From: a virus
IMG/VR virus record: IMGVR_UViG_3300030202_003452
Location: 1 to 64,000 of that record
Direction: 5' to 3' (one strand)
Length of the DNA: 64,000 nt
Made by a program: the position numbers and the translations under genes. The notes under the pieces are model-generated. The model did not search any database. It was not told where the DNA came from and worked only from the letters and a program-made list of their open reading frames with translations. This document shows, one piece after another, positions 9,380-57,912 of this stretch (positions are counted from its first letter, which is position 1; each line of letters begins with the position of its first letter).

Positions 9380-10121
9380 TCATTTTAAAGTAATTATACC
9401 TCTGTATAATGTAGAAGATTGGATCGCAAAAACAATCAAGTCTGTACAGTTACAAAATTATGACAACTATGAGTGTATTTTGGTGGATGACATATCAACC
9501 GATAAAACATCAGAAGTTATTAAGGCAGCAATTGCTGGTGACGATAGATTTAAATTGGTTACAAATACAGAAAAATCATATGCCTTAAAAAATATACATG
9601 ACACGATACAGGAATTAAACCCTGACGATCAAGATATAATATTGACTTTGGATGGCGATGATTGGTTAGCCAGCAGACATGTGCTTTCAAAGATTAATGA
9701 AGTCTATAATGAGAGTGGTTGCTGGATGACTTATGGTTCCTATGTTGAACACCCTAGTAATGTAAAAGGACAGTTTAGCAGACAGATTCCGAAGTCAATA
9801 ATTTATTCAAACGCTTATCGAGAAAGTCCATGGTGTTCATCGCACTTGAGAACATTTAAGTGTGGTTTATGGAGAAAAATAAACAAAAAAGACTTAATCA
9901 ATGACGAGACTGGAAGGTTTGTGAAGGCTGCTTGGGACTTGGCATTTATGTTTCCAATGTTAGAGATGTCCGGTGAAAAAGCCGTATATGTGAAAGACAT
10001 TATGTATGTTTATAACAGAACTAATCCCCTAAATGAAGATAAAATTAACCACTCTGTCCAATTAGGCGAAGAAAGAATGATTAGGAATAGAAAGAAATAC
10101 AGTAAAGTTGATTCATTATGA
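9372..10121 (+). CDS. GT2-type (GT-A) glycosyltransferase
   Basis: 249 residues. VIIPLYNVEDWIAKTIKSVQ and ECILVDDISTDKT are the standard opening of family 2 transferases, with LDGDDW (Asp94, Asp96, Asp97) as the metal-binding DXD site. It is an inverting transferase by family; donor unknown. There is no membrane segment, so it is cytoplasmic. The start lies inside the end of the previous gene and its stop overlaps the start of the fucosyltransferase gene by 4 nt. Confidence 0.88.
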   Translation: MDNHFKVIIPLYNVEDWIAKTIKSVQLQNYDNYECILVDDISTDKTSEVIKAAIAGDDRFKLVTNTEKSYALKNIHDTIQELNPDDQDIILTLDGDDWLASRHVLSKINEVYNESGCWMTYGSYVEHPSNVKGQFSRQIPKSIIYSNAYRESPWCSSHLRTFKCGLWRKINKKDLINDETGRFVKAAWDLAFMFPMLEMSGEKAVYVKDIMYVYNRTNPLNEDKINHSVQLGEERMIRNRKKYSKVDSL

Positions 10122-10903
10122 TTTATGTGTCTTTAAAAGGAAGAATGTGCAACCAGATGTTCCAAATGGCAGCAGCAAAAGCATTATCTTTAGACAATAA
10201 TGCTGATTTTGTTTGTAGTAGTTACACTTCTGGTATTTCACCAACCAATTCAGAAACTACAAAGTACCGAATGACAATATTTGAAGATATAAAATTTGAA
10301 TCTTTTCCAAAGACAGGACTTACTGTACATCACGGATCACCAGACTTTTCTTATGAAAAAATAAACTACACTTCAAACATTTGTTTAGACGGATATTATC
10401 AAAGTGAAAAGTACTTTGTTCACCGAAAAGCAGAAATTAAAGATATGTTTGCGATCCCTGATAAAATTAACAACTTTATTTCTAGAAATTTCTCCAGCCT
10501 TCTGGAGAAGAATACTTGCGCAGTCCACATTAGGAGAGGAGACTACCTTAAATACAAAGAATACCACACCAACCTTGGAGAGGACTACTACAGTAAGTGC
10601 TTCTCTGCTTTTGAAAACACACATTATGTCTTCTTTAGTGATGATATAGAGTGGTGCAAGGAAAGGTTTAGTTATTTGGATGCGACATTTGTCAACACAG
10701 GTTTTGATGTAATTGATTTTTTTCTTATGAGTAAAATGAAAAACAACATCATTGCTAACTCTTCTTTTTCCTGGTGGGCAGCATGGTTAAATGAAAATGA
10801 AAACAAAAGAGTAATTGCTCCTGGAACTTGGTTTGGTCCAAAAAATAGCAATTTTAAAACTGAGGATATAATACCAAACGAATGGGAGATCATTAATGTA
10901 TGA
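10118..10903 (+). CDS. GT11 alpha-1,2-fucosyltransferase
   Basis: 261 residues. GRMCNQMFQMAAAKAL at the start and CAVHIRRGDYLK near residue 137 are the hallmark motifs of GT11 (GNQ/F and HXRRGDY, the GDP-fucose site). FFSDDIEWC and ANSSFSWWAAWLN complete the conserved set. It should transfer fucose from GDP-fucose to a hydroxyl at position 2 of a sugar. The donor can be made by the gmd and fcl products encoded 7-9 kb downstream in the same island. Overlaps the next gene by 8 nt. Confidence 0.92.
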   Translation: MIYVSLKGRMCNQMFQMAAAKALSLDNNADFVCSSYTSGISPTNSETTKYRMTIFEDIKFESFPKTGLTVHHGSPDFSYEKINYTSNICLDGYYQSEKYFVHRKAEIKDMFAIPDKINNFISRNFSSLLEKNTCAVHIRRGDYLKYKEYHTNLGEDYYSKCFSAFENTHYVFFSDDIEWCKERFSYLDATFVNTGFDVIDFFLMSKMKNNIIANSSFSWWAAWLNENENKRVIAPGTWFGPKNSNFKTEDIIPNEWEIINV

Positions 10904-11741
10904 AGTTAACCTTTGGGACAGCACCTTTGAGCATCTTAGGACTAAATCTGGCAATTTTTCTATGATTAAAGACAAGTCCAATAACCATTTCAGGTATTTA
11001 TATAGAAAAACTAATTTTGATGGTGTAACTATTTTCACTGATAATTTCTTAAACCCAGTGTACATTAAGTCAGTTAAGAGCAATATAAAGATTGGTTGGA
11101 TGATAGAGCGGCGTGAAGTTCACCAGCATGCATACGTGTTAGTGGACAAATACATTGATTTACTTGATGTTTTACTCACAAATGATACATCACTATTGCA
11201 GAAATACCCAGAAAAATGCAAATTTGTTCCATTTGGCGGTACATGGGTTGAGGAAAGCAACTATAAAATATTTGACAAGACAAAGGGTATTTCAATGGTT
11301 TATTCAAATAAAATTGGTGGCTTACAAGGTTGGAATCTAAGGCACCAAGTGGCTTCTGTGCTAAAGGGCAAAGTTGATTTGTTTGGAACTGGGGCGGATA
11401 AGTTTATTGAGAAAAAAGAAGAGGCCTTAACAGATTACAAATATTCGATTGTCATAGAAAACGTCAGGAAAGACAACTATTTTACAGAAAAATTATTGGA
11501 TTGTTTTGCCGTTGGTACGATTCCAATTTATTGGGGCTGTCCAAACATAGAAGAGTTTTTTGATCCACGAGGAATTATAACCTTTGAGACTGCTGATGAG
11601 TTATACAATATTATCAATGGAATCGAAGACACGAGACTAGAACAAGAAGCAATATTGCACAATCTAGAAGAATGCAAAAAATATGATGTTGTTGAGAACT
11701 GGATGTATGAAAATATACTAAAGGAGGCCCTTGATGGGTAA
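10896..11741 (+). CDS. GT10 alpha-1,3/1,4-fucosyltransferase
   Basis: 281 residues. The GT10 signature lies near residues 195-222: YFTEKLLDCFAVGTIPIYWG then CPNIEEFFDP, with IVIENVRKDNYF just before it. This is the GDP-fucose-binding region shared with bacterial and animal Lewis-type fucosyltransferases. Bacterial members often have a C-terminal heptad tail; none is seen here. It sits beside the GT11 enzyme, so the product could carry two differently linked fucoses. Confidence 0.9.
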   Translation: MYEVNLWDSTFEHLRTKSGNFSMIKDKSNNHFRYLYRKTNFDGVTIFTDNFLNPVYIKSVKSNIKIGWMIERREVHQHAYVLVDKYIDLLDVLLTNDTSLLQKYPEKCKFVPFGGTWVEESNYKIFDKTKGISMVYSNKIGGLQGWNLRHQVASVLKGKVDLFGTGADKFIEKKEEALTDYKYSIVIENVRKDNYFTEKLLDCFAVGTIPIYWGCPNIEEFFDPRGIITFETADELYNIINGIEDTRLEQEAILHNLEECKKYDVVENWMYENILKEALDG

Positions 11742-12564
11742 AATAATCAATATACCATTTGTAGATCCTCCAAGATGGCAATCCTCTACCTTAACACCTT
11801 CACAACAACTAGAGAGACTAGGACGGTCCGGAAGATTCGTTGGTGATTTTAAAGAGTACAACAGGGACGAGAATTTAGCACACTTATTGAAAGGCAAAAG
11901 AATTGCCTACGTGTGCCCTTCTCCTCACCTGAGGGGCTTAAACATGGGTGAGTATATAGATTCCCATGACTTGGTAATTAGAGTCAACCAGGCGTATCAT
12001 ATGCGTGAAAATGACTGGCAAGATTATGGCAAAAGAACAGATATTTTAATAAACTGTTTAAACATTCACAAAAGACGTGCTTTAGGTGCAAACATGGAAT
12101 TTGCAAATTCTCTAAAATACCTAATATGCTCCATGGTTAACGTACAAACGCTACCAGCAGTTAATCAATTCTTAAGTAAACTAGAAATACCAACCCACAA
12201 TGTTTGTGATGGTTATCTCTTCAAGATATTTGAGCAAGTCGGGACAACGTGTAACACAGGCTTGACAGGAATCATAACATTGCTAAATTATGATATTGAA
12301 AGTTTATATGTCACAGGAATGTCGTTTTTTAATATGAACAATTTTGGTAAAATATATAATGATACGTATCATGATGAGGCGGCCAAAAATAATAATTTCA
12401 CAAGCACCTCTAATAAGATGCCATCTAAGTCTGATCTTAGAATTGACATCCACCAGCAAGGTCCTCAAATAGAATATTTTAGAAAAATGCTTGATCATCA
12501 TTACTCAAAAAAACTGAAGGTCGATGATTATTTGATTAAAAACTTTAACTTGGAAGAAAAATGA
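11734..12564 (+). CDS. GT29 sialyltransferase-like protein
   Basis: 276 residues. The ATG at 11734 is chosen over the TTG at 11731 because AAGGAGG at 11721-11727 is better spaced. Residues about 56-105 match the sialylmotif L of GT29: MGEYIDSHDLVIRVNQ then YGKRTDILINCLN. Residues about 170-190 (CNTGLTGIITLLNY) match sialylmotif S. GT29 uses CMP-sialic acid in animals. It has no N-terminal membrane anchor, unlike the animal Golgi enzymes. The next gene encodes a CMP-sugar synthetase-like protein, which fits. The actual donor is unproven. Confidence 0.75.
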   Translation: MGKIINIPFVDPPRWQSSTLTPSQQLERLGRSGRFVGDFKEYNRDENLAHLLKGKRIAYVCPSPHLRGLNMGEYIDSHDLVIRVNQAYHMRENDWQDYGKRTDILINCLNIHKRRALGANMEFANSLKYLICSMVNVQTLPAVNQFLSKLEIPTHNVCDGYLFKIFEQVGTTCNTGLTGIITLLNYDIESLYVTGMSFFNMNNFGKIYNDTYHDEAAKNNNFTSTSNKMPSKSDLRIDIHQQGPQIEYFRKMLDHHYSKKLKVDDYLIKNFNLEEK

Positions 12565-13694
12565 ATAATATTGTAGCAATGATCCCCGCAAGATTAGGTA
12601 GTAAAAGAGTGCCTAAGAAAAACATAAGATTACTGAACAACAAGCCTTTGATACAGTATGTTATAGATGCTGCCAAAGATTCTGGTTGTTTTGATGCCAT
12701 TTATGTAAACTCAGAATCAGAAATTCTTAAAGAGATCGCTGAGATATCAGGTGTAAAATTTTTTAAGAGATCACCCTACATGGCTTCTGATGCAGCCACC
12801 AATGATGAATTTATGCTTGAGTTTTTAGAAAACGTAGCATGCGACATAGTAATTCAAATTTTACCCACTTCTCCTTTCATCACCCCTGAGGAGATAAGGT
12901 GTTTTGTTAATGAAATTGTTGACAACAAACTTGATACACTAATATCCGTATCAAGTCAGCAAATAGAATGTGTTTATAATAATGATCCGATTAATTTTGA
13001 TCCCACAAAGATAAGCCCTCCTTCGCAAGAAGTAACACCAGTTCATCCTTACGCTTGTTCTTTAATGGGCTGGAGATCTGAAAATTATGTTTCCAACATG
13101 AATGAGTACTCTGCCGCTTACCACGGTGGGCTAGGCAAGAAAGGCTTTTTTGAACTCAAGGGGTATTCAACCATTGATATAGACAATGAAGAAGATTTCC
13201 AACTGGCAGAAGTTGTTTCTAGACATCTATCTAAGAACGACTCGTTCAAGCCACAATTCTATGGAGCCGAACATTCTGAGGTTGATGTCCCCTCTATCCT
13301 AGCAAAAGACGGCGTTATGTACAATAACTTGCATGAATGTAATAAAGAGATTGTAAACATCAATTCTATTCGGGCCGCGAATGATGACTCCAAGAGTTGG
13401 AGCCACCGAGTAGTAAATACCGAGAACAACAGTGCAACAATTATTCATCAACAACCCGGTGAGGGTAATCGACGACACTACCACCCCAGTTGGAATGAAT
13501 GGTGGTATATTATTGATGGCGAGTGGGAGTGGGAGATTGACGGTGTTATTAAGAAAATTAAAAAAGATGACATAGTTTTTATTGGAAAAGGTATCCCACA
13601 TAGAATTCAGGCGGTAGGTAACAAGCCGGCGATTAGATTAGCAGTTAGTAGAGAAGATGTTGCTCATGTCTACCCAGATGGAGACAGTTCATAA
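12561..13694 (+). CDS. CMP-sugar (NeuA/KdsB-like) cytidylyltransferase fused to a cupin
   Basis: 377 residues. The first 230 residues are a cytidylyltransferase: MIPARLGSKRVPKKNI is the nucleotide loop, and DIDNEEDFQLAE is the usual end of the domain. The C-terminal part is a cupin with motif GX5HXHX4EX6G (Gly300, His306, His308, Glu313, Gly320) and a second His in GKGIPHRI. Members activate 3-deoxy-2-ulosonic acids such as sialic acids or Kdo with CTP. The cupin could epimerise or otherwise change the sugar, or only bind it. No sialic acid synthase (NeuB) is in the window. Overlaps the GT29 gene by 4 nt and the SDR gene by one base. Confidence 0.85.
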   Translation: MNNIVAMIPARLGSKRVPKKNIRLLNNKPLIQYVIDAAKDSGCFDAIYVNSESEILKEIAEISGVKFFKRSPYMASDAATNDEFMLEFLENVACDIVIQILPTSPFITPEEIRCFVNEIVDNKLDTLISVSSQQIECVYNNDPINFDPTKISPPSQEVTPVHPYACSLMGWRSENYVSNMNEYSAAYHGGLGKKGFFELKGYSTIDIDNEEDFQLAEVVSRHLSKNDSFKPQFYGAEHSEVDVPSILAKDGVMYNNLHECNKEIVNINSIRAANDDSKSWSHRVVNTENNSATIIHQQPGEGNRRHYHPSWNEWWYIIDGEWEWEIDGVIKKIKKDDIVFIGKGIPHRIQAVGNKPAIRLAVSREDVAHVYPDGDSS

Positions 13695-14419
13695 TGAAAA
13701 TTGATTTTAAAAATCAGACAGTCTTGGTAACAGGGGCCACCAGAGGAATAGGTAGGCAAATTGCCGAGGATATGTTTCACGCTGGTGCAAACATTATAGC
13801 AACAGGCACCAGTGATCTTTCTTTAAATCAACTAAATGATGGTTTTGAAAAATACCCTGTTGATTTTTTAGATTCACAATCAGTAGATAACTTTATTAGT
13901 TTCCTCTCAAATAAAAAGATTGATGTGTGTATTAACAATGCAGGTATCAATAAGATTGCATCAATTGGTGATGTACAACAAGAAGACTGGGATGCCATAA
14001 TTAAAGTAAATTTGACAACACCATTCAGAATAATAAAAACAATCTCAAATACAATGAAGAGACATAACTATGGAAGAATAGTAAACATTTCATCTATTTG
14101 GGGTACAATAAGCAAGGAATATAGAGCATCATATTCCTCTAGTAAATTTGGCCTTGTAGGCCTATCGCTTTCAGCAGCCGCAGAGTTGGCAAAATATGAT
14201 GTCCTTGTTAACACGGTGTCTCCTGGCTTTACATTAACTGATCTAACAAGAGAAGTTCTGGGTGAAACAGAGATGGTTAAAATTGCAAAAACCATACCAA
14301 TTGGCCGGATGGCAACACCAAGTGATATTTCAAAAGTGGTTATGTTTATGGCTAGTAATCAAAATAATTATATTTCTGGGCAAAACATCGTAGTGGACGG
14401 GGGATTTACAAATGTATAA
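13694..14419 (+). CDS. Short-chain dehydrogenase/reductase
   Basis: 241 residues, a classical SDR: GATRGIG (residues 14-20) binds NAD(P), NNAG follows, and the catalytic YSSSK has Tyr147 and Lys151. It ends with GQNIVVDGG, the common C-terminal motif. It resembles 3-oxoacyl-ACP reductases (FabG), but its place between a cytidylyltransferase and a sugar cyclase argues that it oxidises or reduces a sugar or cyclitol. It overlaps the next gene by 8 nt. Confidence 0.88.
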   Translation: MKIDFKNQTVLVTGATRGIGRQIAEDMFHAGANIIATGTSDLSLNQLNDGFEKYPVDFLDSQSVDNFISFLSNKKIDVCINNAGINKIASIGDVQQEDWDAIIKVNLTTPFRIIKTISNTMKRHNYGRIVNISSIWGTISKEYRASYSSSKFGLVGLSLSAAAELAKYDVLVNTVSPGFTLTDLTREVLGETEMVKIAKTIPIGRMATPSDISKVVMFMASNQNNYISGQNIVVDGGFTNV

Positions 14420-15467
14420 TATGAAAATTTCCTCATATAGAAGAGAATACGAAGTTAATTTTTACGATTCAGAAGTAAATTTAAACCGATGGGCAGATGA
14501 CTCTTATGTTCTAATTGATTCTACTGTTAACGAGTTGTACCCGCATCTCACATCAGGCTTCAAGACAGAAAAAGTCATCATTATAGAAGCCACAGAGGAC
14601 AATAAATCATTGCCTTTTTGTCAAGACTTAATTGGTCTTTTAATTAACAAGGGTGTGAAGAAAAACCATAAACTAATCGCCGTTGGCGGAGGAATTATAC
14701 AGGACATAACAGGATTTATTTCATCTGTCTTGTATAGAGGTATAGAGTGGGTCTTTTACCCCACCACATTGTTATCTCAATCGGACAGTTGCATAGGAAG
14801 CAAGACATCAATTAACTTTTTAAATGTCAAGAATTCTATCGGGACTTTTTATCCACCAAGAGAAATTATTTGCTGCACAAAGTTCCTGAAAACACTAAGT
14901 GACTCTGAGATTAAATCAGGCATTGGAGAGATGCTTCATTACTACATTTATGATGGCAACTCTATGGCGTTAAAAATCAAAGAAGAATACGAAAGTCTTT
15001 TCACAGACCGATCTTCTTTGATGCCGTATGTTAGAGAAAGTCTGTCAATAAAGAAAAAATTAATTGAAATAGATGAGTTTGATACGAACCTAAGGAGGGT
15101 CTTTAATTATGGCCACACTTTTGGTCATGCAATTGAGACTCTTAGCAACTACAGCATCCCTCATGGCCAAGCAGTGACTCTAGGGATGGATTTGGCCAAC
15201 TATGTTTCTTGGAAACTAGGTTTTTTATCTTTTGAGAGATATAAATTTATGAATCAAATCCTGTTTAAAAATATACCAGAGTTTTTGATAACAAAAGATG
15301 AGATTGATGAATACATGGAGTATTTGTCGAAGGATAAGAAAAATATAGAAAAAACAATTGTTTGTATATTGGCATCTGATTTTGGAGATCTATTCGTTCA
15401 TCAAGTGCAAAACAAGAGCGAATTGCAAAATCTAATATTAGAATATTTTATTGGGGATAGAGTATGA
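14412..15467 (+). CDS. Sugar-phosphate cyclase of the 3-dehydroquinate synthase family
   Basis: 351 residues. VGGGIIQDITGF (Gly92-94) binds NAD; PTTLLSQSDSCIGSKTSIN is the substrate loop; Glu173, His235 (GHTFGH) and His251 (PHGQAV) match the three zinc ligands of AroB. Two places differ from AroB: the substrate loop has GSKT instead of GGKT, and His176 replaces the Lys found three residues after the zinc-binding Glu. The family also contains 2-deoxy-scyllo-inosose and 2-epi-5-epi-valiolone synthases. Given its neighbours I infer a sugar cyclase, not shikimate synthesis. No other shikimate gene is present. Overlaps the aminotransferase gene by 4 nt. Confidence 0.85.
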   Translation: MYNMKISSYRREYEVNFYDSEVNLNRWADDSYVLIDSTVNELYPHLTSGFKTEKVIIIEATEDNKSLPFCQDLIGLLINKGVKKNHKLIAVGGGIIQDITGFISSVLYRGIEWVFYPTTLLSQSDSCIGSKTSINFLNVKNSIGTFYPPREIICCTKFLKTLSDSEIKSGIGEMLHYYIYDGNSMALKIKEEYESLFTDRSSLMPYVRESLSIKKKLIEIDEFDTNLRRVFNYGHTFGHAIETLSNYSIPHGQAVTLGMDLANYVSWKLGFLSFERYKFMNQILFKNIPEFLITKDEIDEYMEYLSKDKKNIEKTIVCILASDFGDLFVHQVQNKSELQNLILEYFIGDRV

Positions 15468-16636
15468 TAAGTTTAGCCAGAAACAGTAAATTCAATATTA
15501 ACGTTAACTTCTCTAAATCAAAAGGGTCTTATCTTTATGACAACAATACGGAGAGAAGATATTTAGATTTTTTTGGAATGTATGCATCTCTTCCACTAGG
15601 TTATAACCATGATATTTTTCTTTCTGAAGAATTCAGGGATGAGATTTTAGCAGCCTCTACATTTAAGATAAATAATTGCGAGTTTGTTTCTAATGAAACT
15701 TTAGGTTTCGATAAAGAGTTTAGACAGTTTACAGGTAATGGTATTTACGATAACTATCACTATACTTGTACGGGTGCATTGGCAGTTGAAGCCGCAATAA
15801 AGACTTGCATACATCGATCTGGCTATAAAAAGCCAAACATAGTATCTTTTAGAAATAGTTTTCATGGGATAAACAGTTTTGGTTCTTTTGTGACTGATCA
15901 TTTCTGGCCTGCCAGTAATAAATTAGACGGTCTCCCAGAAACTTTTTCAACAAAACTAAATTGTGATTTGAGAGAGATTGAGTCTTATTTGCATAAAAAT
16001 TTTGTAACTTGTGTTTTAGTAGAACCAATACAGTGTAGCGCAGGAGATATACATCAAGACATTATTTTCTTTACAGGATTGAGGCGCCTTTGTGATAAAT
16101 ACGATGTTCCTTTAGTGTTTGATGAAATACAAGTAGGTTTCGGTAGCACCGGTAAACTTTGGTTTTATGAGCACACTGGTATAGTCCCTGACATTGTAAT
16201 TTTTGGCAAAAAAACACAATTATCTGGCATTATGGTAAACGATAAATGTAATAAAATATTTGACAAAAGTAACATCACTAGGTTACAAGTAACTTGGGAC
16301 GGTGATGCGGTAGACATGATAAGATGCAAATATATAATGAGGGCATACAAAAAATATGAAATCATTGAAAAGGTTGCTGAAAAGAGTGAATACTTAATCA
16401 ATAACTTAAACAAGACAAAGAGACTTTTAAACTTGAGATCGTCCGGGCTAATTATGGCGTTTGATTTAGTAAACACAAAGGAAAGGGATGAATTGGTAAG
16501 CAAATTGTATCAAAATGGATTGATTTGCAACAAGACTGGTGAAAAATCGGTTAGGTTGAGACCAAATTTGGCAATTTCTTACGATGAAATAGAACAATTT
16601 ATATCTATTATTAACAAAACATGTGGAGGTTTATAA
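15464..16636 (+). CDS. Class III PLP aminotransferase, lysine 6-transaminase-like
   Basis: 390 residues. EPIQCSAGD and VFDEIQVGFGSTGKLW are the class III PLP-binding segments, and IFGKKTQLSGIMV (Lys249/Lys250) holds the Schiff-base lysine. The FGKKTQ form is typical of L-lysine 6-transaminases. Next to the cyclase and SDR genes, a role adding an amino group to a ketone or aldehyde sugar or cyclitol is plausible; use of lysine as amino donor is possible. Its stop shares one base with the ATG of the SIS gene. Confidence 0.82.
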   Translation: MISLARNSKFNINVNFSKSKGSYLYDNNTERRYLDFFGMYASLPLGYNHDIFLSEEFRDEILAASTFKINNCEFVSNETLGFDKEFRQFTGNGIYDNYHYTCTGALAVEAAIKTCIHRSGYKKPNIVSFRNSFHGINSFGSFVTDHFWPASNKLDGLPETFSTKLNCDLREIESYLHKNFVTCVLVEPIQCSAGDIHQDIIFFTGLRRLCDKYDVPLVFDEIQVGFGSTGKLWFYEHTGIVPDIVIFGKKTQLSGIMVNDKCNKIFDKSNITRLQVTWDGDAVDMIRCKYIMRAYKKYEIIEKVAEKSEYLINNLNKTKRLLNLRSSGLIMAFDLVNTKERDELVSKLYQNGLICNKTGEKSVRLRPNLAISYDEIEQFISIINKTCGGL

Positions 16637-17217
16637 TGTTGATAGATTTTGAAAATATACAAGAAAAGTGTAACCAGGCTTCTTCTTCAGAAGAGTATCA
16701 AAAATTAATTGATAAAGTAAATGGAGCCAAGAAGATTTACTTGGTTGGAAATGGTGGTCTTCATTTTGTGGCATGTCATATGTCAACTGATATGTCTAGG
16801 CTAATACCAGATAAATCCGTGTACTCGTTTGATAGTGTGGGGTTCATTACCTCAAATGCAAATGACCATGGATTTGAGCAACTTTTCATTAGATGGTTGG
16901 AAAGCATAGCGACAATCGAAAACCCAGAAGACTGCTTGGTTATAGGCCTATCTTGCTCTGGTAATTCTTCCAATGTTATTAATGCCCTACACTGGGCAGA
17001 TAATCGTGGCATGGGAACATTTCTAATTAGCGGTGAAACTTCTGAAAACTTACAAGACAACATTGACGAACTATCAATAAAATGTAAGTATTTTCATACT
17101 GTTGAGGTCTCAATTATGATGATTTTTTACGATCTGATCCATAGAACTGGTAATCGATGCCCTTCAATTAGAGACGAAAAAATTAGAATGGTAGATTCTC
17201 CTTTGAGGGCGAAATGA
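16636..17217 (+). CDS. SIS-domain sugar-phosphate isomerase, GmhA-like
   Basis: 193 residues from ATG 16636, with TGGAGG at 16624-16629; the in-frame ATG at 16621 lies upstream of that site and is rejected. VGNGGLHFVACHMSTDM and GLSCSGNSSNVINALHWA are the two sugar-phosphate loops of GmhA-type phosphoheptose isomerases. In GmhA the first loop is usually GNGGS; here the Ser is Leu, so substrate or activity may differ. GmhA acts on sedoheptulose 7-phosphate, the same compound used by valiolone-type cyclases, which makes its place in this module notable. Overlaps fcl by 4 nt (ATGA). Confidence 0.8.
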   Translation: MLIDFENIQEKCNQASSSEEYQKLIDKVNGAKKIYLVGNGGLHFVACHMSTDMSRLIPDKSVYSFDSVGFITSNANDHGFEQLFIRWLESIATIENPEDCLVIGLSCSGNSSNVINALHWADNRGMGTFLISGETSENLQDNIDELSIKCKYFHTVEVSIMMIFYDLIHRTGNRCPSIRDEKIRMVDSPLRAK

Positions 17218-18125
17218 GCAAGTATAATAGTGTTCTAGTAACTGGAGGTTCTGGTTTTGTTGGCAAACGTTTAAAACATTTCAGACCAGATTGGAACTAT
17301 TGTTCTTCAAAAGATTGTAATCTACTAAGTATAGATTCCACAATTAATTATTTAGAACAGACCAAGCCTAATGCAATAGTGCATTTGGCTGCTAGAGTTG
17401 GTGGAATAAAAGACAATAAAGAAAACCAGGCAGAATTTTTTTATGAAAATACCGTTATAAACACCAATCTTTTACATGCGGCTCATTTATGTGGCGTGAA
17501 AAGAGTTTTATCATCACTTAGCACCTGTGCCTTCCCAGACGAAGGTATGTCTTACCCTTTTTCTGAGTCTGATTTGTTTTTAGGCCCACCCGCCGAAACA
17601 AACTTTTCATATGGATATACGAAAAGAGCGTTACATGTTCAGTCAATTTCATATAGAGAGCAATATGGCTTAAATTATTCAACTTTTAGTCCATCCAACA
17701 TATACGGTATTGGTGATTATTTTGGAACAATGTCCTCGCATTTTGTAGCCTCTTTGATCCATAAAGTAGCAGTCTGCAAAACAGGAGAGACATTGACCTT
17801 CTGGGGAACTGGGAGACCTTTAAGGCAACAGTTGTATGTTGATGATTTGTGCAGAATAATACCTATGCTGCTAGAAAAACATAACACTAGAATCCCTATT
17901 ATTGTAGCCCCAAATGAAAATTTATCAATATCTGAAATGTGTAGAATATTAGAGAAAAATATAGACAAAGAGGTTGATTTTAGATTCAATGGTATGCTAG
18001 ACGGTCAGTTTAGAAAAGACGGCAGCAATGATCAGTTAAAAAAACTCATTGGAGACTTTGAATTCACAAGTTTTAGCGAGGGGGTTAAAAAAACTTACAA
18101 TTCATACATAAAAACACTTGACTAA
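17214..18125 (+). CDS. fcl: GDP-L-fucose synthase (GDP-4-keto-6-deoxymannose epimerase/reductase)
   Basis: 303 residues, extended SDR. VTGGSGFVG binds NADP; HLAARVGGI, STCAFPDE and YGYTK (Tyr133, Lys137) follow the order of Fcl/WcaG, including the Ser-Thr-Cys segment that carries the catalytic Ser and Cys. It converts the Gmd product to GDP-L-fucose. The related ColC of the colitose pathway has the same fold, so after a ColD step it could also serve that branch. It precedes the promoter at 18118, which overlaps its last codons. Confidence 0.88.
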   Translation: MSKYNSVLVTGGSGFVGKRLKHFRPDWNYCSSKDCNLLSIDSTINYLEQTKPNAIVHLAARVGGIKDNKENQAEFFYENTVINTNLLHAAHLCGVKRVLSSLSTCAFPDEGMSYPFSESDLFLGPPAETNFSYGYTKRALHVQSISYREQYGLNYSTFSPSNIYGIGDYFGTMSSHFVASLIHKVAVCKTGETLTFWGTGRPLRQQLYVDDLCRIIPMLLEKHNTRIPIIVAPNENLSISEMCRILEKNIDKEVDFRFNGMLDGQFRKDGSNDQLKKLIGDFEFTSFSEGVKKTYNSYIKTLD

Positions 18126-18146
18126 CTTGTGAAAACGGGTTATAAT
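18118..18146 (+). promoter_or_regulatory. Internal sigma-70-like promoter in the glycan island
   Basis: TTGACT (18118-18123), 17-bp spacer, perfect TATAAT (18141-18146). The first 12 bases match the promoter at 4480. The leader carries a T-run and GGAG (18165-18168) before the ATG at 18174. All genes from here to the late sigma factor are nearly contiguous, so this promoter may drive them all. Confidence 0.75.
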
Positions 18147-18173
18147 ATATAAAAGTCTTTTTTTGGAGTTTAA

Positions 18174-19334
18174 ATGAAAAAAATTACACTAGTTGACGAC
18201 ACAATCTCAAAAGAAGATATAGAGAGATTAGTGGCGTGGCTATCAACCGATGTCCCGCCAAGACTTACAAAAGGCCCAGTAACAATTCAGTTGGAAAATA
18301 AGTGGTCTAATTGGTTAGGAGTTAACAATACTGTTTTTTGTAACTCAGGATCTTCAGCAAATTTACTGATGTTGTGGGCACTGTATGAGGCCGGTAGAAT
18401 ACCTAGGAATGCAAAAATCATAGTACCAGCGATTTCCTGGGCGACAGATTTATCACCAGTTATACAACTTGGCTTTGAGCCGATTATTTGTGATTGTAAC
18501 ATGAAAGACTTGTCTGTTGATATAGATCATTTAAAGCAAATAATTAGAGAAGATCAACCCCATGTCTTGTTACTGGTTTCAGTCTTAGGCTTGGTCCCCG
18601 ACATGCAATCTTTGAAGGATATATGTGATGAAAATAACGTAATTCTTCTAGAAGACACTTGCGAGAGCATGGGTTCTAAGTTTAGAGATAAGAAATTAGG
18701 CACCTTTGGCCTGATGTCTAGTTTTTCCACTTACTTTGGTCATCATATTTCTACGATTGAAGGCGGTTTTGTCAGCACAGATGATGAAGAGTTATATGAA
18801 GTCCTAAAGGCAATTAGGAGCCACGGCTGGACGAGAGACTCGAGTAAATCGTTTCGAGAACGCCATCTGACAGAGTGGAACACTAGCGAATTTGATTCTT
18901 TATATACTTTTTATTATTCTGGGTTTAATTTAAGATCTACTGATTTACAAGCCTATATTGGCCTGGGCCAAATTGACAAACTAGACCAGATCTCAAAAAT
19001 CAGGAACAGGAATTTCAAAATATACAATGAGAAGTTTAGTGATATATCTCCAATAATTTCTGAGGATACAAATTATATTTCAAACTTTGCATATCCTATA
19101 ATTCATGAAAACAGAACTCAGATAGTTGAAAATTTAATTAAAAATAATGTAGAGGTTCGACCATTGATTTGTGGTTCTATGGGAAATCAGCCCTTTTATG
19201 TCAAGAATTATGGGAAAAATAATTTAAAGAACTCTAGTGTTGTTGACAAAAATGGCCTGTATATACCCAACCATGATAAGTTATCAGAGGAAGAGGTCAA
19301 CCTGGTGGTTGATATAGTTAGGGAGAGTGTATGA
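18174..19334 (+). CDS. DegT/StrS-fold PLP enzyme, ColD-like 3-dehydratase
   Basis: 386 residues of the DegT/DnrJ/EryC1/StrS family (FCNSGSSANLLMLWAL, LEDTCESMGS, FNLRSTDLQAYIGLGQ). Where aminotransferases of this family carry the PLP-binding lysine (K, five residues before the GEGG-like motif), this protein reads FGHHISTIEGG with His190. The Lys-to-His change marks the deoxygenating members ColD and the CDP-hexose dehydrase E1 (RfbH). ColD removes the 3-hydroxyl from GDP-4-keto-6-deoxymannose, the Gmd product. The next gene is gmd, which supports a ColD-type role. An aminotransferase is unlikely without the lysine. Confidence 0.82.
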   Translation: MKKITLVDDTISKEDIERLVAWLSTDVPPRLTKGPVTIQLENKWSNWLGVNNTVFCNSGSSANLLMLWALYEAGRIPRNAKIIVPAISWATDLSPVIQLGFEPIICDCNMKDLSVDIDHLKQIIREDQPHVLLLVSVLGLVPDMQSLKDICDENNVILLEDTCESMGSKFRDKKLGTFGLMSSFSTYFGHHISTIEGGFVSTDDEELYEVLKAIRSHGWTRDSSKSFRERHLTEWNTSEFDSLYTFYYSGFNLRSTDLQAYIGLGQIDKLDQISKIRNRNFKIYNEKFSDISPIISEDTNYISNFAYPIIHENRTQIVENLIKNNVEVRPLICGSMGNQPFYVKNYGKNNLKNSSVVDKNGLYIPNHDKLSEEEVNLVVDIVRESV

Positions 19335-20308
19335 AGACAGCAATTATAACGGGAGTTACTGGTCAGGATGGATCTTATTTGTCCGAAATGTTATTGGGAA
19401 TGGGGTATCGAGTTGTAGGCCTTAAGAGAAGAACTTCTTTGATATGTACTGATAGAATTGATCATCTGATGAGTAATCCGAATTTTATATTAAGATATTA
19501 TAGTCTTCATGACTCCGGGGTGCTCTATTCATTACTGCAGCAATATAAGCCTGATGAGTTTTATAATCTAGCAGCCCAGTCGCACGTGAAAGTCTCCTTT
19601 GAGACCCCAGAGGAAACTGTTGCTACGATTGCAATGGGAACTTTGAGGATATTAGAGGCAATTAGGCACACTGACCCAACGATAAAATTTTATCAAGCAT
19701 CATCTTCTGAAATGTTTGGTGACAACCCAGAACACCCACAGAGTGAAAAGACTGCTCTAATGCCAGCCAGCCCATATGCTTGTGCAAAAGTATTTGCGCA
19801 CAATTTGTGTAATAACTACAGAAAAAGTTATGGTATGTTTATTTCTTGTGGGATATTGTTTAACCATGAATCTCCTAGAAGAGGAGAAACATTTGTAACC
19901 AGAAAGATAACAATTGCAGCAGCAAGAATAAAACTAGGATTACAAGACAAGTTATACCTAGGAAACCTAGATGCAAAAAGAGATTGGGGTCATGCTGAAG
20001 ATTACGTAAATGCAATGTGGCTAATGCTACAGAAAGATACACCAGGTGATTATGTTGTGGCAACGGGAAAAACATATACAGTAAAACAGTTTCTGCATCA
20101 AGTCTTTGAAATAGCCGACTTATCAGTTGAAGACTACGTTGAAATAGATCCAAAGTTATTTAGGCCACATGAGGTTCCATTACTGCTAGGAGATCCTTCA
20201 AAAGCAAAACTTGAGTTGGGCTGGGAACCTAAATACGAACTGCGAGGACTAGCGGAGGCAATGTATTTTGCAGATCTAGAAAAGATCAAAAAAGAGAATA
20301 ATTTGTAA
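19331..20308 (+). CDS. gmd: GDP-mannose 4,6-dehydratase
   Basis: 325 residues. ITGVTGQDGSYL binds NADP; YNLAAQSHV, QASSSEMFG and SPYACAK (catalytic Tyr and Lys), then NHESPRRGETFVTRKI and RDWGHAEDYV are the signature segments of Gmd. It converts GDP-mannose to GDP-4-keto-6-deoxymannose, the common precursor of GDP-fucose and GDP-colitose. GDP-mannose must come from the host or from genes outside the window. Overlaps the ColD-like gene by 4 nt. Confidence 0.95.
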   Translation: MKTAIITGVTGQDGSYLSEMLLGMGYRVVGLKRRTSLICTDRIDHLMSNPNFILRYYSLHDSGVLYSLLQQYKPDEFYNLAAQSHVKVSFETPEETVATIAMGTLRILEAIRHTDPTIKFYQASSSEMFGDNPEHPQSEKTALMPASPYACAKVFAHNLCNNYRKSYGMFISCGILFNHESPRRGETFVTRKITIAAARIKLGLQDKLYLGNLDAKRDWGHAEDYVNAMWLMLQKDTPGDYVVATGKTYTVKQFLHQVFEIADLSVEDYVEIDPKLFRPHEVPLLLGDPSKAKLELGWEPKYELRGLAEAMYFADLEKIKKENNL

Positions 20309-20324
20309 TAGTTTTGGGGTTTGT

Positions 20325-21182
20325 ATGAAGAAAGTTATAGTAACAGGTGGCTGTGGTTTTGTCGGCAGTAATTTGGTAGATCTTTTGATAGAGCAATCAT
20401 ATGAAGTAATTGTCATTGACGATTTATCTTATGGCAAAAAAGAAAATTGCAACCCATCTGCAAAATATATATTTGATGATTTTAAGAAATATTTGTCCAC
20501 CCCATCAATAGGTCTTGAGGGTGTAGAGGTAATTTTTCATATCGCAGCAGAAGCAAGAATACAGCCATCTTTTGATGATCCTTTATATACTTGTGAAAAC
20601 AATTCTTATGGTACTGCTGTTGTTTGTGAATACGCTAGAAAAAATAACTGCATGGTGGTTTATGCAGGATCCAGTTCGTTTTATGGAGGGGTTTATCTTA
20701 ACCCATATGCTTTTGCAAAATGGCAGGGGGAAGAAACTATTAAAATGTACACAAAAGTTTATGGAATCAAGAGTGGGATTGCAAGGTTTTTTAATGTTTA
20801 CGGACCAAGAAACCCTAGAATTGGACAATACACACCTGTCGTGGCAATCTTTGAAGAACAGATGAAGAACAAAAGCCCCCTGACAATAGTCGGGGATGGC
20901 ATGCAAAGAAGGGACTTTACACACGTTTATGACATATGTTCCGGCCTAATCGCTATTTCAAAAAAAGACAGGGAATGTAAAGTTTATAATCTTGGGACAG
21001 GAAGGAACTATTCGATAAATGAACTGGCAGACATGTTTGGTGGCGAAAAGAAACATCTACCAGCGAGACCAGGAGAGGCAAGAAATACCCTAGCAGACAT
21101 CTCAGAGTCGATAAAGGAATTAGATTGGCAACCCAAACGTCAGTTGTTTGACTATGTACAGGAGATAAAAAATGGCCTATAA
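20325..21182 (+). CDS. NAD-dependent sugar epimerase/dehydratase
   Basis: 285 residues, extended SDR. VTGGCGFVGSNLVDLL binds NAD, IAAEARIQPSFDDP and GSSSFYGG follow, and NPYAFAKWQGEE gives the Tyr-XXX-Lys pair; RFFNVYGPRNP and RRDFTHVYDIC are typical of UDP-glucose 4-epimerase-like enzymes. The C-terminal domain (LPARPGEARNTLAD) is also standard. The substrate cannot be told; an NDP-hexose 4-epimerase is the best guess. It follows gmd by 16 nt and overlaps the sulfotransferase gene by 11 nt. Confidence 0.85.
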   Translation: MKKVIVTGGCGFVGSNLVDLLIEQSYEVIVIDDLSYGKKENCNPSAKYIFDDFKKYLSTPSIGLEGVEVIFHIAAEARIQPSFDDPLYTCENNSYGTAVVCEYARKNNCMVVYAGSSSFYGGVYLNPYAFAKWQGEETIKMYTKVYGIKSGIARFFNVYGPRNPRIGQYTPVVAIFEEQMKNKSPLTIVGDGMQRRDFTHVYDICSGLIAISKKDRECKVYNLGTGRNYSINELADMFGGEKKHLPARPGEARNTLADISESIKELDWQPKRQLFDYVQEIKNGL

Positions 21183-21786
21183 CCATGCCAAGGGTCTTTC
21201 TTATATTTATGAAGACAAAGGCATATGTTTCGTGCCTATACCTAAAAACAGCAGCACAACAATTAGAAGATTAAACCCTGACTATAGAGTTTCAAACTTT
21301 TTGGATGACCCAACAATATTAGAAAACTATAAAACGATATGTGTTGTTAGGGATCCTTTCGAAAGATTTTGCAGTGCATATATTGAGATAAACAAGAGAG
21401 CGCTTGGCGATGGCGTAGAGACTAGGAAAAAAAAATTTTTTAAGATACATGGTGAGCCAAAAAGATTTTACTCTTTCATAGAAGAGGTGCATGATTATGG
21501 TTTTTTTGATGCACATATTGAACCACAAATGTTTTATATGACAGACTTAGACAATAACATTGTAATAGATAAGGTCTATAAAATAGAAGAGACCAATTTA
21601 CTTCTAGAGAATGAATTTTCTATTATTAATTCTAGTCATTATAACAAAAACTCTGGTGTTGCAAAATCCACAATATCACAGTATCTAAGAAACAACAAAG
21701 AACTTTCACGTATGGTTTTAAAAATGTACAGGAAAGATATTGATTTTATTTTAAATTTTAAGGAGCAAAAAAATGAAAGATCATAA
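21172..21786 (+). CDS. Sulfotransferase-like protein (carbohydrate sulfotransferase family)
   Basis: 204 residues. VPIPKNSSTTIRRL (Lys25) matches the 5'-phosphosulfate-binding loop and VVRDPFERFCSAY (Arg60, Ser68) the 3'-phosphate-binding motif of PAPS-dependent sulfotransferases. It should transfer sulfate from host PAPS to a hydroxyl, most likely on the glycan built by the island. There is no membrane anchor. It is the last enzyme of the island; its end overlaps the start of a small conserved phage gene by 14 nt. Confidence 0.82.
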   Translation: MAYNHAKGLSYIYEDKGICFVPIPKNSSTTIRRLNPDYRVSNFLDDPTILENYKTICVVRDPFERFCSAYIEINKRALGDGVETRKKKFFKIHGEPKRFYSFIEEVHDYGFFDAHIEPQMFYMTDLDNNIVIDKVYKIEETNLLLENEFSIINSSHYNKNSGVAKSTISQYLRNNKELSRMVLKMYRKDIDFILNFKEQKNERS

Positions 21787-25827: not shown

Positions 25828-28800
25828 ATGGCCGAAAAAGATTTCTCAAAATTTCAAAAAGACGTTTGTGATGATATTACACCACCACCACCGATAAAAA
25901 AAATATGCCCAACCTGTATTGTAAACCCCAACTATATTGAGCCTGACTGGACTGGTATGGTTAATCGTCCATATCTAAACGAAGGGACTTGTGAATATAC
26001 TTGTGTAGTTAGTCTTGATAGATACGGGGAATATCTTACTGCTGCTGATTTTAGAAGCCCTCCTCAAGGCCGTGAGGTGGCTTTGAGACAATATATCGAG
26101 CCGGCATTGCGTTTAATGTTGCGGCATTTTGGGAAACTTGAGGCTGATGCAATAATTTGCGCTTCATTTCCTGGACTTAAACTTGAAGGGTTGGCCCCGG
26201 ATGAGTTACTAGAACTTCAAAGTGACTATACTTTGGCCTATACGAGGCATATCGAATCTGGTGGGACTGATGTTTTTGACGAGAGAAGCCTGGAAGATAT
26301 TCCATTGTCTCAGAGAAATTCATGCCCACCTATTGATCAAATAATAGCAGAGGCAACCAACTCAATTTATGCAGGAGAAAATAGAACAACTGAAGAGGGC
26401 GACTCCTTTGAAGTGTTTGATGCCACCAAGTTTGCAACAGGAGAGTATCCTGAGATTACAAACCCTTACGCTTTAGAACTATATGCCGTAATAAAAGATT
26501 TTGATATTGATCCAATAGGAAACTATCTTAAAGTAAAAGTTACTGTCCCTGCATTTATCTTTGATCAAGTGCCAAGCAAGCCTAGAATACAACTTCCTGG
26601 TGGATCCGATACAGTAAGTAAACTTAATGCCAATAATTCAGTTGAGTTTTTATCCGAGGATTTGTCTCCTCAACTGACTAGGCTGTCTACTAGTTTGGGT
26701 ATCTATAGTACATACCAATCATTGTTTTGGAGAAACCAAGATGGTTATCTAATATTTTCTGATACTCAAGACGTAGAGGCGCTTAGCGCAGAGGACATTC
26801 AGCCTGTTGATTATTATGCATCTGAAGAAAAGGTCAAAATTGATCAATTTAAAGATAAAATTGTGCAGATTATAAGAGATAATGGTTATGAAGTCAATAG
26901 TTTCTTTTCTGGTATAGGCAACCTTGTAAGGAAAGTTAAACTAGAATTTTTAGAAGGAGAGATTTACAAACTTAAGGCGGTGAAGGTAGAAGTTAATGGT
27001 TGCGGGTATAGCAAATTAACCGACGGGTTTGATAATTTCAAAAGTTGGTGTGACAATCGACCCACCACAATGCACTATGTTGCTAATTTAAAGAAGATAG
27101 ACATGTCATTGCGTGCATCACAGTCCTATCCATGGTTAGATTTTTTAGTAGCATACACATACCCACAGATATCTGTTGTTTACGGTCGCCTTAGCAAAGA
27201 CAATCTTGAGCAAGACGTTGGTAGTTGCATAGTAAACAACGCGAACCAATATGCTATTGAGTTGAGAGACACTATCTTAAATGATTCAGTCAATTTAATG
27301 AAAGCATTAGAATTTGAGTTCAACAATGTGTCATGTTCTAGGCCCGGGTCAAAGCCAAAGTTCTTAGAAAATGAAGATGCTATTAATGCTGCTAATCAAC
27401 AAGTATATCAGGCGCAATTTGATAAATTTTTCGCCCAAGATTCCTTTTTAAAGTCTTTAATCCCACCAGATACATTAAGATCAATGAGCACAAATCCTAA
27501 CAGTTCAGCACTTAAGTCTCTTAAGGACGAACCCAAAGGTTCTCAAAGTGATCACGTCATTAAAATGTTGACTTTATGTAACATCAATAGTGTTGGTATG
27601 GCAGCAATGCGCTGTCTTTTCTCAGGGACTTCTTACCAAAATGCAATGTCTAAAATTGTTCGTGTGGCGCTTGAGTCCATGGATATTGATGTTATTGGTT
27701 TTTTCATTGAAAACCTACCACCAGAAGATCAGATTAAGATCCGTCAGCAATATGAAAAAGATTTTGGCAATCTACCACTACCATGGGAAGCAGGATATGA
27801 TCCTGGCTCAATGTCAAACTCAAACCCTTATCAAAAATACAAAGATGGGTTTATTAAGCAAGCGTTAGCGGGTCAAGACGATAACAAAAAATTAGTGCAA
27901 TTTAAAGCAGAATTAGATCAATCAATCAAAGATCAGGCCGCACAATTGAACAGAGTTGGTGATCAATTAAAAAGAGTCAATAAGATCTCAGGAGAAATTG
28001 CGGAAGTCAATGCTCAAGAATATAATCCATGGCAAGAAGGAACTATCGCAGGCCTTATGAAACAATTGGAATCTGAGAACAAAGTTCTTGCTGGTGAACA
28101 GTTGGTATACGAACAACTTTTGGCACGTACCACAGACTTAGAAGCACAAATATCAAAATTATCAAAGGAGACATCTGATCCTAACGCAAAAAAATCTGAT
28201 TTGGAAATCTGGAGGGATCTACCGGAAGAGGAAAAGAAAACATTAGCGGATGCTGCCAATAGGGAGTCAAAAGCAAAAGAAAACACCCCTCCTGGGACTT
28301 ATGGTAATGCACTTGGGTCTCTTCAAAAGACAATTACTTCTGCTTATATTGACTATATGATGGACTCTCTGCAGATTGATGTACTACTTCAGACTCTTGA
28401 TAGGGTGCCGCTTGTAGGTGAGTTATTGCCCAGGTTATTAGCCAGCGTAAAATGTGCCGCACAGAGTCCATCAGAACCTCCAATTGATAGTTTTCTTAGC
28501 ACTCTAACACTAGATGTGTGTGGGGATTTACAAAATGGACTGAGGATGCCTAAAATCCCAACAGTTCCAAACTTTTTTGACACTGCGCTGCTAACAAAAC
28601 TGGCCAATATATTCATAGCATCATTTTCACAAACAATTACAAAAGTTTTGGTTAGTTTAATGTTTAAATTACTACAAACAATTGAGCAAGGAATTTGTGA
28701 TGGCCTTAATGCTCTCGGTCAATTTGTGGCAGAGGGTGACTTTTCAGGGGATGGTTTTGATAATGCACTTAGAGATGCCTGGTGCCCAGATGGAGACGAA

Positions 28801-31800
28801 GATGATCTGGCAGCGGCTAAGAATGGAGTTTTTGGTAATCTTGGAGGGTTCGGGGGAGATATTAATTGTCTTTTTAGAACACTTAATTCAGTCACGTCTC
28901 GAAAAGAAAATGTGCAATTAATGGCTGGCCAAGGAGAGCCGCATGTATCTGCTAGAATAGCAGAGGCAGTAAATACATTTTGTCCAGAATATGGTGGAGT
29001 CATGGGTACTCCTCAAGACGTAGAGAGAGTTTATGTCAATTGTGGTTCATATTGCCCACCAGAACTGTTGCAAGAACTGCTAGAAGAAGTAAACAGGGCG
29101 CCTGATGGGCCAATATATGAATCAATTTGTTTGACTCAGGAAGAATTGGATCAATTTAACAGAGATAGAGAGGGGCTGCTAACTGCAAATGGTTTAGACG
29201 AAGAAACAGCCAGAGACATGATTGACAAGGCGAACGAAAGAGTACTAGACGACCTAGGTGATGTTGCAAAAATCATGCAACAGGGACCACAGGGATTAAT
29301 GGAGCAGGCAATCGATGATTTGTTGTCTCGTGCTGATCCAACTTGTTCTGTAAATAAAAGCGCTATATTACTTGAAACACCAGAGAGCCGTGAACAAAAG
29401 AAAGGATTAATTAATGACTTCTTTAGTTTGCTTGAAAGAAGATTTTTTGATGATTTAATTGGAGAGTATCATTCTGTTTTGGCCAGTATCCTAACAGACA
29501 CTGCTGATAATTCATTAAAACTCCACGAACTGTTTGTTGGGTTGCCGATATTCATTCCAAATTATGTTAACTCAGAAGCAGACTGGGAATTTAGAAAAGA
29601 GTATGGCTCTATATGGTACGCAAATGACTTTCGTATGCCTGATATAGAGAACGCTAGCGGGATGTTTCCTGCAACAGTTGGTATTCATATGAGGAAACAA
29701 ATACAGATGTCGATGTTTTCGTTCTTAAATACCGACGGAGAGGTGAAGATTAGTGGCAACTTTACGAACGATGCAAATGGTGAAGGCCCAGACTATGAAA
29801 TGGAAATGTCAATAACCAGAAAAGGCGGCATAGATAATAAATTTAATATCAACATCAAGGAAATTTTCTATTCTTTTAGACCTGGTCAAGATTTAGATGA
29901 GGCATTTAGTAACGATCCTGTTATTGAAAGGGATAGAATAAAATATTCTAAGCCTTTTGCGTATGATGATTCCTTCTTAGAGGGCATACAGTTTCCCGTA
30001 GCGGGTCGTACTAAGGGATATGTTAAAGTTTTTGAAAATTTACTAAAACGTGGCCTCAACAGGCCCGTAGAAATCAATAGTATAGAGAGTAGAAAAGTTT
30101 ACGAAGCGATTAACTCAGAAATGTTTACATTTGTTAGGGATGCCATGTTAAATGATCCGGATGGAGGGACCCCTATAGGTTATAAATTTGGTTATGATGC
30201 AAGCCAAGCCATTGAATTTAGAGATCTAATATATGTGGATCCAGACGCTAATCCTAATGATGAAGGTACTTGGAGTTATACCTTTGATGAGGAAGATAGA
30301 AAACTTGGTAAAAGTGCAACAGAGAATCCAAGAGTGCATTTTTTGGACCCGGATATTCACGGTGGCTCCTATAGGAGACCAAAGATTTACATTGAGCCTG
30401 CAACTTATAATGGTTGGATGGGGATGATGCGCACTTTTGTCCCTGAGATTTCTAGTTGTGATGAGAATACAACTAATTTCTTAGATCTCGCTCAAATCAC
30501 CAATCGAGTTAAAGAAATTGAAGACAACCTGCCATTCGACGAGCGCTTATCATTACCGCCGGAATGTCGGGTAGAGATACCATTTGATAGACAATTTAGT
30601 CCTATAAACCACGGATTAATGGATGGCGTTGTTACTTCAACGGTTAGAGTATATGCCACAGAGTTTATTCTAAAAACACTTCCAGTTTTTAGCAGCGTTG
30701 AAATGTCGGATAGAAACATTGATGATATTTTTTCTGATGTTTTGATTGAGGCTATGAAAGATGGGATGGTGGATCAATTTAATCTTTTCAATGTTATACA
30801 AGGTTATACTTATTGGCTATTGTTCTTAGAGCAATCAGTGCAATCTGTTGAAAGAATGATCTTGGATGGGATGCTTGAGATGACACCAGCGCTTGTTGAA
30901 GCAAAAGAACAAATAGATCAAGCAAAGGAACAGTTTGCCTCACTAGGCCAGGATTTCTTCCAAGCATGCGATGACATAGCCAGAGGCTCAGCGATTATTG
31001 CTTATGGCGAAGATTGGGAAGAAGTTTTAAATGATTCTATGAAGATGGACTGGGGTGATGTTGCAGGTTTATGGAGAGCAGCAGCAGGTATTCCGTTATC
31101 ACCATTTCGCTTAGGCTTGGCAAACAGCATAAATACTATATGGAAGGCTCGAGATGCCGCGAAAGTATTCTTAAGAGAAATAGTGAAAAGGGAAATAACA
31201 CAATTATCTGAGAAGTTATATTTTAATATGCGCCCTCGACCTCATGTTTACGACATAAGCAAGTACTTATTATCTAAGAATGGTATGATGAGGGGTTCAA
31301 CTTTAAGAGCGGGAGAGAGCAAAATTGAGGCTCCTGTGACCGGTGGTAAATCTGGTATTGGGTATGGATCTATTTTTGATGTACCACGGAACATTTTAGA
31401 AGAAAATGTGTTTGACAATGCTTTATTAACACCAGATGAACTTGAGGAATTAAATGAAAAAGGTGTTTTTTATCTCGAGAGGTACATTCGAACCACCGAC
31501 AAAGACGGCTTGGAACAAGTTTACAACATCAAAGAACTACAGGAATTACTTAGCGATAGGGCCGTTTATGACGAGAACTCAAAACTATCAGACTATTTTG
31601 GCAACCTAGAGTTGATCAGCGATGACAGAATTCTAGTCGGCTCCTTAGGGGTACAGTTTGGGGTACGACTAATGTATTGTCCTCCTTCGGCTTTTTCTTA
31701 TGACTTAAATGATTTAGATGCAGAGACAAACCGAGCATTCTCTCACAAGCCGGCCATGATACAATTAGCAACTGAAACTAGTCAAAGGCCTTGGCAATTA

Positions 31801-57826: not shown

Positions 57827-57912
57827 GGGATTGTGGTGGAATCGGTAGACACACCAGACTTAAAATCTGTTGCTCATTGAGCGTGGGGGTTCAAGTCCCC
57901 CCAATCCCACCA
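57827..57912 (+). tRNA. tRNA-Leu (anticodon UAA)
   Basis: 86 nt with the 3' CCA encoded (57910-57912). Acceptor GGGATTG pairs with CAATCCC; the anticodon TAA (57861-57863) lies in loop CTTAAAA; the long variable arm GCTC-ATT-GAGC is the class II form expected for leucine; the T arm is GGGGG-TTCAAGT-CCCCC. It reads UUA (and UUG by wobble), which suits AT-rich phage genes. The first anticodon-stem pair (C-U) is mismatched; otherwise it looks functional. Confidence 0.95.

Follow-up and report, generated by a model that had tools for sequence, protein, structure and literature searches.

Phage-borne genes that alter the nonulosonic acid of a host surface glycan have been described in Acinetobacter prophages, which encode the EpaA/EpaB pair (PMC12053666), and islands of lipopolysaccharide genes, comprising glycosyltransferases and sugar enzymes, occupy a variable region of the genomes of marine myophages (PMC7029224). 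The locus analyzed here is in part comparable to both; the myophage report does not contain the words dehydroquinate, sialic or aminotransferase and thus describes no such cassette. The cassette is located at positions 12561-17217 of the window, a stretch of 64,000 nucleotides representing bases 1-64000 of the 107,260-base IMG/VR virus record IMGVR_UViG_3300030202_003452, which is perhaps a fragment. Its genes encode a cytidine triphosphate (CTP)-transferase fused to a cupin (CTP-cupin), a short-chain dehydrogenase/reductase (SDR), a cyclase related to the 3-dehydroquinate (DHQ) synthase AroB, a class III aminotransferase and a SIS-fold protein. This is a genuine and recurrent viral cassette, probably dedicated to an acidic, aminated sugar activated with cytidine monophosphate (CMP). 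With confidence only slightly better than even, we propose that its product is an amino sugar resembling an ulosonic acid, which is activated with CMP and then attached to a surface glycan.

The five open reading frames (ORFs), at 12561-13694, 13694-14419, 14412-15467, 15464-16636 and 16621-17217, are all on the plus strand and each overlaps the next, as described in an earlier note on this DNA. The overlapping run is larger, however, than the five genes listed there: upstream, just outside those limits, a gene for a GT29 glycosyltransferase (11731-12564, plus strand) overlaps the first ORF by 4 bases, and downstream the run continues into a gene for a GDP-L-fucose synthase-like epimerase/reductase (17214-18125, plus strand), assigned by family match and often found downstream of the cassette in its relatives.

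Related viral contigs were found by scans with alignments of the CTP-cupin, aminotransferase and cyclase proteins; alignments were needed because scans of viral and genome contigs with the single cyclase sequence gave no matches. Removal of near-duplicates left 44 contigs with the CTP-cupin. Since the viral loci were collected by the CTP-cupin pattern, with flanks limited to 10 kb, the gene counts are frequencies given that protein. The five genes occurred in the order of the window in 10 of the 44 contigs, at 39-74% protein identity, which shows that the order is not due to chance and agrees with the conserved arrangement sought in the earlier note. In total, a lysine 6-aminotransferase (LAT)-like aminotransferase accompanied the CTP-cupin in 37 contigs, the SIS protein in 35, GT29 in 30, the SDR in 25 and the cyclase in 24. 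The GT29 gene was directly upstream of the CTP-cupin gene in 25 of the 44, as in the window.

The evidence for an activated sugar comes from the CTP-transferase and from GT29. The CTP_transf_3 domain of the first ORF scored 85.6 bits (Pfam cut-off 22.6) and the fused Cupin_2 domain, which carries a motif of the metal-binding type, 53 bits. By Pfam and NCBIfam comparison the transferase is nearest to NeuA and PseF, although it missed the PseF equivalog cut-off (94.7 versus 205.7); in three contigs (L024, L025 and L128) transferase and cupin are two separate ORFs. The GT29 protein matched PF00777 with 28.7 bits, above the cut-off of 23, and its profile search of the PDB retrieved mammalian sialyltransferases (E 5e-6). 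Its AlphaFold model (pLDDT 89) matched sialyltransferases, or complexes of one, in all 30 of the 30 PDB matches at E<=0.001 (TM 0.41-0.55). The enzyme therefore likely uses a CMP-sugar donor, and its gene is the best pointer to what the cassette makes. The synthesis and activation of a rare sugar by the phage, as suggested in the earlier note, is thus supported by the transferase and GT29 together, and by the frequency of CMP-transferases beside the SDR and cyclase genes in bacteria.

The cyclase (14412-15467) matched the Pfam families DHQ_synthase (118.6 bits) and DHQS_C (100.4 bits). It exceeded the curated cut-off of the NCBIfam family TIGR04425, 'AroB-related putative sugar phosphate phospholyase (cyclizing)' (426.8 versus 400), but not that of aroB (273 versus 305). 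In a maximum-likelihood tree, bacterial and viral TIGR04425-type proteins formed one clade (100/97), apart from 2-deoxy-scyllo-inosose synthases, sedoheptulose 7-phosphate cyclases and AroB proteins; one Bacteroides AroB was placed next to it with weak support. The viral members are scattered among the bacterial ones, which indicates repeated transfer of the family between viruses and bacteria. A tblastn search of phages and plasmids with the cyclase returned only AroB-like or other distant cyclases, of roughly 26-36% identity. The best matches of its AlphaFold model were DHQ synthases (TM 0.86). This fold, and an active site that is nearly complete, would be compatible with an auxiliary gene of the shikimate pathway, i.e., an extra DHQ synthase that boosts the aromatic synthesis of the host. 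Such a role is extremely improbable and was rejected: the cyclase falls in its own clade, below the aroB cut-off and in a glycan context, and a separate AroB, above its cut-off, was encoded in all six of the bacterial genomes with a TIGR04425-type cyclase. The cyclase is thus distinct from true DHQ synthases, in keeping with the earlier note.

The active site was analyzed in an alignment of the window cyclase with 48 viral and 74 bacterial TIGR04425-type members and reference enzymes, using the residue numbering of the A. nidulans DHQ synthase. The window protein carries the DHQ-synthase letter at 14 of 15 active-site positions. K250, E260, R264, H275 and K356 are kept in the window and in all of the viral (48/48) and bacterial (74/74) members, and N268 in all but one. 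The deviating position, Lys197, is His in the window, in 28 of the 48 viral and in 50 of the 74 bacterial members; His is associated with loci bearing CTP-cupin and GT29, whereas Lys or Arg occurs in viral loci with a thiamine enzyme. The roles of K197, K250 and R264 are presumed from family comparison, and a literature search for residues that bind 3-deoxy-D-arabino-heptulosonate 7-phosphate found nothing.

These residues bear upon the analogy drawn in the earlier note with C7N amino-cyclitol and 2-deoxystreptamine pathways, in which the substrate of the cyclase would be sedoheptulose 7-phosphate or glucose 6-phosphate, and an amino-cyclitol would arise through the aminotransferase. The cyclase, SDR and aminotransferase classes fit this scheme in outline, and the SIS protein is a distant relative of GmhA. 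However, the reference sedoheptulose 7-phosphate (valiolone-type: EEVS, DDGS) cyclases have M at 250, P at 275 and D or A at 268, and the reference 2-deoxy-scyllo-inosose synthases G or A at 264 and E at 268, in contrast to the K, H, N and R of the window. Together with the separate clade and the ties of the cassette to CMP-sugar enzymes, this makes an amino-cyclitol very unlikely.

The SDR and cyclase genes also occur together in bacteria, where the context of 80 loci from many phyla was analyzed. In most of these the SDR gene is upstream of the cyclase gene. The neighbours include Gfo/Idh proteins (65 loci), D-2-hydroxyacid dehydrogenases (62), SIS proteins (56), HpcH/HpaI aldolases (36), KdsB-type and NeuA-type CMP-transferases (30 each; one of the KdsB type passes the kdsB cut-off) and YhcH-type proteins (24). 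YhcH was shown by experiment to be a sialic acid anomerase (PMC8141875). Several of the neighbours are enzymes of 2-keto sugar acids, in agreement with the DHQ-synthase residue set kept by the cyclase. A LAT-like aminotransferase was present in none of the 80 loci except L040. This contig is binned as a thaumarchaeal metagenome-assembled genome, but its cassette is of the viral type and is accompanied by genes that belong to viral clusters; it is probably of viral origin and placed in the wrong bin.

Among the viral contigs, the SDR and the cyclase behave as one exchangeable unit. The two were present or absent together in the 44 contigs (24 with both; a 25th SDR lies on a contig that ends just past it), and the SDR gene was directly beside the cyclase gene in 22 of the 24 cyclase-bearing contigs. 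The LAT-like (37/44) and SIS (35/44) proteins were usually kept. Of the 20 contigs without the cyclase, 14 had a gene of the HAD superfamily within 10 kb, versus 2 of the 24 with the cyclase (Fisher 3e-5). Contigs L206 and L233 are 95.8% identical in DNA sequence over 13.6 kb, and positions 17010-18747 of the former, with cyclase and SDR, are replaced in the latter by positions 15089-15600. The gene found there is closest to the KDN-9-phosphate phosphatase (E 1.6e-14), at 54 bits far below the family cut-off of 180. Similarly, between L228 and L239 (about 93.5% DNA identity) the pair is replaced in place by another HAD-like gene, which we take from its motif to lie near the EcbF/BcbF type, and a third HAD family occupies the syntenic place in L249. 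The pair is therefore swapped in place between near-identical phages; the exchanged HAD genes, judged by family and motif, are putative phosphatases.

The swaps would also suit a cyclase that does not close a ring. Phosphate elimination alone would yield a terminal deoxy-ketone for the SDR and the aminotransferase to convert to a terminally deoxygenated, aminated ulosonic acid with ordinary CMP activation. Exchange with phosphatase-like genes suggests that phosphate removal is the shared task, the SDR always accompanies the cyclase, and the objection of a non-anomeric carbon (see below) disappears. Conversely, the retention of all but one of the DHQ-synthase residues suggests the full reaction, and we know of no member of the superfamily that stops at elimination; we regard this scheme as unlikely. 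Even less probable is a separate cyclitol acid, made by the SDR and cyclase and attached to the glycan independently, while the CTP-transferase, LAT-like and SIS proteins produce a different CMP-sugar. These three do occur without the pair, and other viral loci combine the pair with HpcH or NeuB genes and a thiamine-diphosphate enzyme, but in the cassette it is located between the CTP-cupin and LAT-like genes and is swapped there for a HAD gene. The other loci (L150-L186) represent a second viral arrangement, in which SDR and cyclase are accompanied by an acetolactate-synthase-like thiamine-diphosphate enzyme, an HpcH-like or NeuB protein, an epimerase and an FGGY-like kinase.

The remaining enzymes of the cassette correspond to the families proposed in the earlier note, with some corrections. 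The SDR (13694-14419; adh_short_C2, 168.8 bits) is assigned as the partner of the cyclase from its gene context. The aminotransferase (15464-16636; Aminotran_3, 212.4 bits) is closest to the L-lysine 6-aminotransferases, yet falls under their curated cut-off (256.8 versus 520.8). In all 12 of the 12 proteins checked, Arg170 is replaced by I, V or L and Glu243 by S or T, while the pyridoxal-phosphate lysine is kept; lysine is thus an unlikely substrate, given the roles that we presume for these residues in lysine 6-aminotransferases. The presence of an amino group in the product is suggested by the aminotransferase family. The SIS protein (16621-17217), a predicted phosphosugar binder, scored slightly below the SIS_2 cut-off (24.8 versus 27 bits) and is only a distant relative of GmhA (61 bits, curated cut-off 209); its start may be at the second ATG (16636). 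The phosphate-loop serines are kept, but at the position of GmhA His180 the window protein has Tyr, as do 35 of 38 viral SIS proteins, a further point against an amino-cyclitol that also leaves the link to sedoheptulose 7-phosphate, drawn in the earlier note through GmhA, a weak one. In L177, positions 11019-12790, adjoining a cyclase cassette, were read as a GHMP-type kinase, a second SIS protein and a HAD-like protein. This set suggests a separate heptose pathway, in which case the SIS protein of the cassette itself would have another role.

From the families, gene order, co-occurrence, active-site residues, fold matches and gene swaps, we infer the substrates, order of steps, product and biological purpose as follows. 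The SIS protein would handle a phosphorylated sugar acid, probably derived from the host. The phosphate would then be removed, in the phage of the window by the SDR and cyclase: the cyclase would transiently oxidize the sugar with NAD+, eliminate phosphate and re-close the ring through carbon in the manner of DHQ synthase, and the SDR would reduce or oxidize a ketone. This route would yield a carbocyclic or deoxy variant, whereas in related phages the HAD phosphatase-like enzyme would leave the plain sugar. The aminotransferase would add an amino group, and the CTP-transferase domain would load the product onto CMP, assisted by the cupin, which may open or anomerize the sugar. Finally, GT29 would transfer the sugar, probably to a glycan that contains fucose and is built with the GT10, GT11, Gmd and Fcl-like proteins encoded nearby, and the altered host surface might serve, e.g., against superinfection. 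A bolder version, possible but doubtful, is that the sugar synthesized by the virus and loaded onto CMP is a carbocyclic analogue of an ulosonic (sialic-type) acid, with ring carbon in place of ring oxygen, which the sialyltransferase-like enzyme attaches to a surface glycan. By exchange of SDR and cyclase for a phosphatase, related phages would then switch between this analogue and the normal sugar.

Several observations weigh against the proposed CMP-activated amino sugar. Neither NeuB nor an HpcH aldolase was found in the 107-kb phage record, itself perhaps a fragment, so that another source must supply the keto-acid precursor. Ordinary glycosyl transfer needs an anomeric carbon, and the carbon that bears CMP would lose this character if the product were carbocyclic. 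After correction for kinship, 3-4 independent swaps in the predicted direction and none in the opposite remain, too few for significance (p 0.125 in a sign test that did not yet include the third HAD family). That third family is also present in two cyclase-bearing contigs, L200, with a divergent cyclase outside a cassette, and L234 (the same contig as L177), with a cassette cyclase; strict mutual exclusion of HAD and cyclase genes is thereby weakened. In addition, a literature search found no tested activity for any TIGR04425 enzyme, and no paper that names the family.

The genes for GT11, GT10, Gmd and a sulfotransferase lie close to the cassette. Together with those for GT29 and the Fcl-like protein, they occupy 10118-12564 and 17214-21786, a set that recalls animal-type fucosylated, sialylated glycans, here in a tailed phage. 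Terminase, portal, capsid and sheath-like proteins, read from ORFs outside the window but in the same record, indicate a T4-like tailed phage; the nearest match of the terminase is Flavobacterium phage immuto (47%). A DNA-level search against phages gave no match. Elsewhere in the window are a weak match to the metalloprotease-type domain PF07737 (4518-5192; 20.5 bits, below the cut-off of 27.4), an ORF of 2178 amino acids (25828-32364) without a tblastn match in the phage collection, and an Rfam-confirmed tRNA-Leu (taa) at 57827-57912.

The proposal provides a concrete, testable role for a widespread cyclase family of no known function, which occurs in viruses and across many bacterial phyla. 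Phages, it suggests, may remodel surface sugars by means of modules whose chemistry is exchangeable in one step between near-identical genomes, and a new activated sugar may be the outcome.

A literature search for O-antigen cyclitols made with such cyclases returned nothing relevant. AroB shares the fold and nearly all of the active-site residues of the cyclase, which differs in its clade, its score below the AroB cut-off, the change of K197 to His and the lack of a shikimate context. In EpaA, the CTP_transf_3 domain is likewise fused to a second domain, but this is an aldo-keto reductase rather than a cupin; the EpaA/EpaB pair lacks a cyclase, an aminotransferase and GT29, and its function is proven (PMC12053666). 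The synthesis of CMP-sialic and CMP-pseudaminic acids by NeuA or PseF with a sialyltransferase follows the same logic of CTP-transferase and GT29, to which the cassette adds the cyclase, SDR, LAT-like and SIS proteins, in a phage record without NeuB. The bacterial TIGR04425 surface-glycan loci similarly contain the SDR and cyclase pair, a SIS protein and a CMP-transferase; they also encode Gfo/Idh and D-2-hydroxyacid dehydrogenase and, in many cases, a pyruvate aldolase, where the phage cassette carries the LAT-like aminotransferase.

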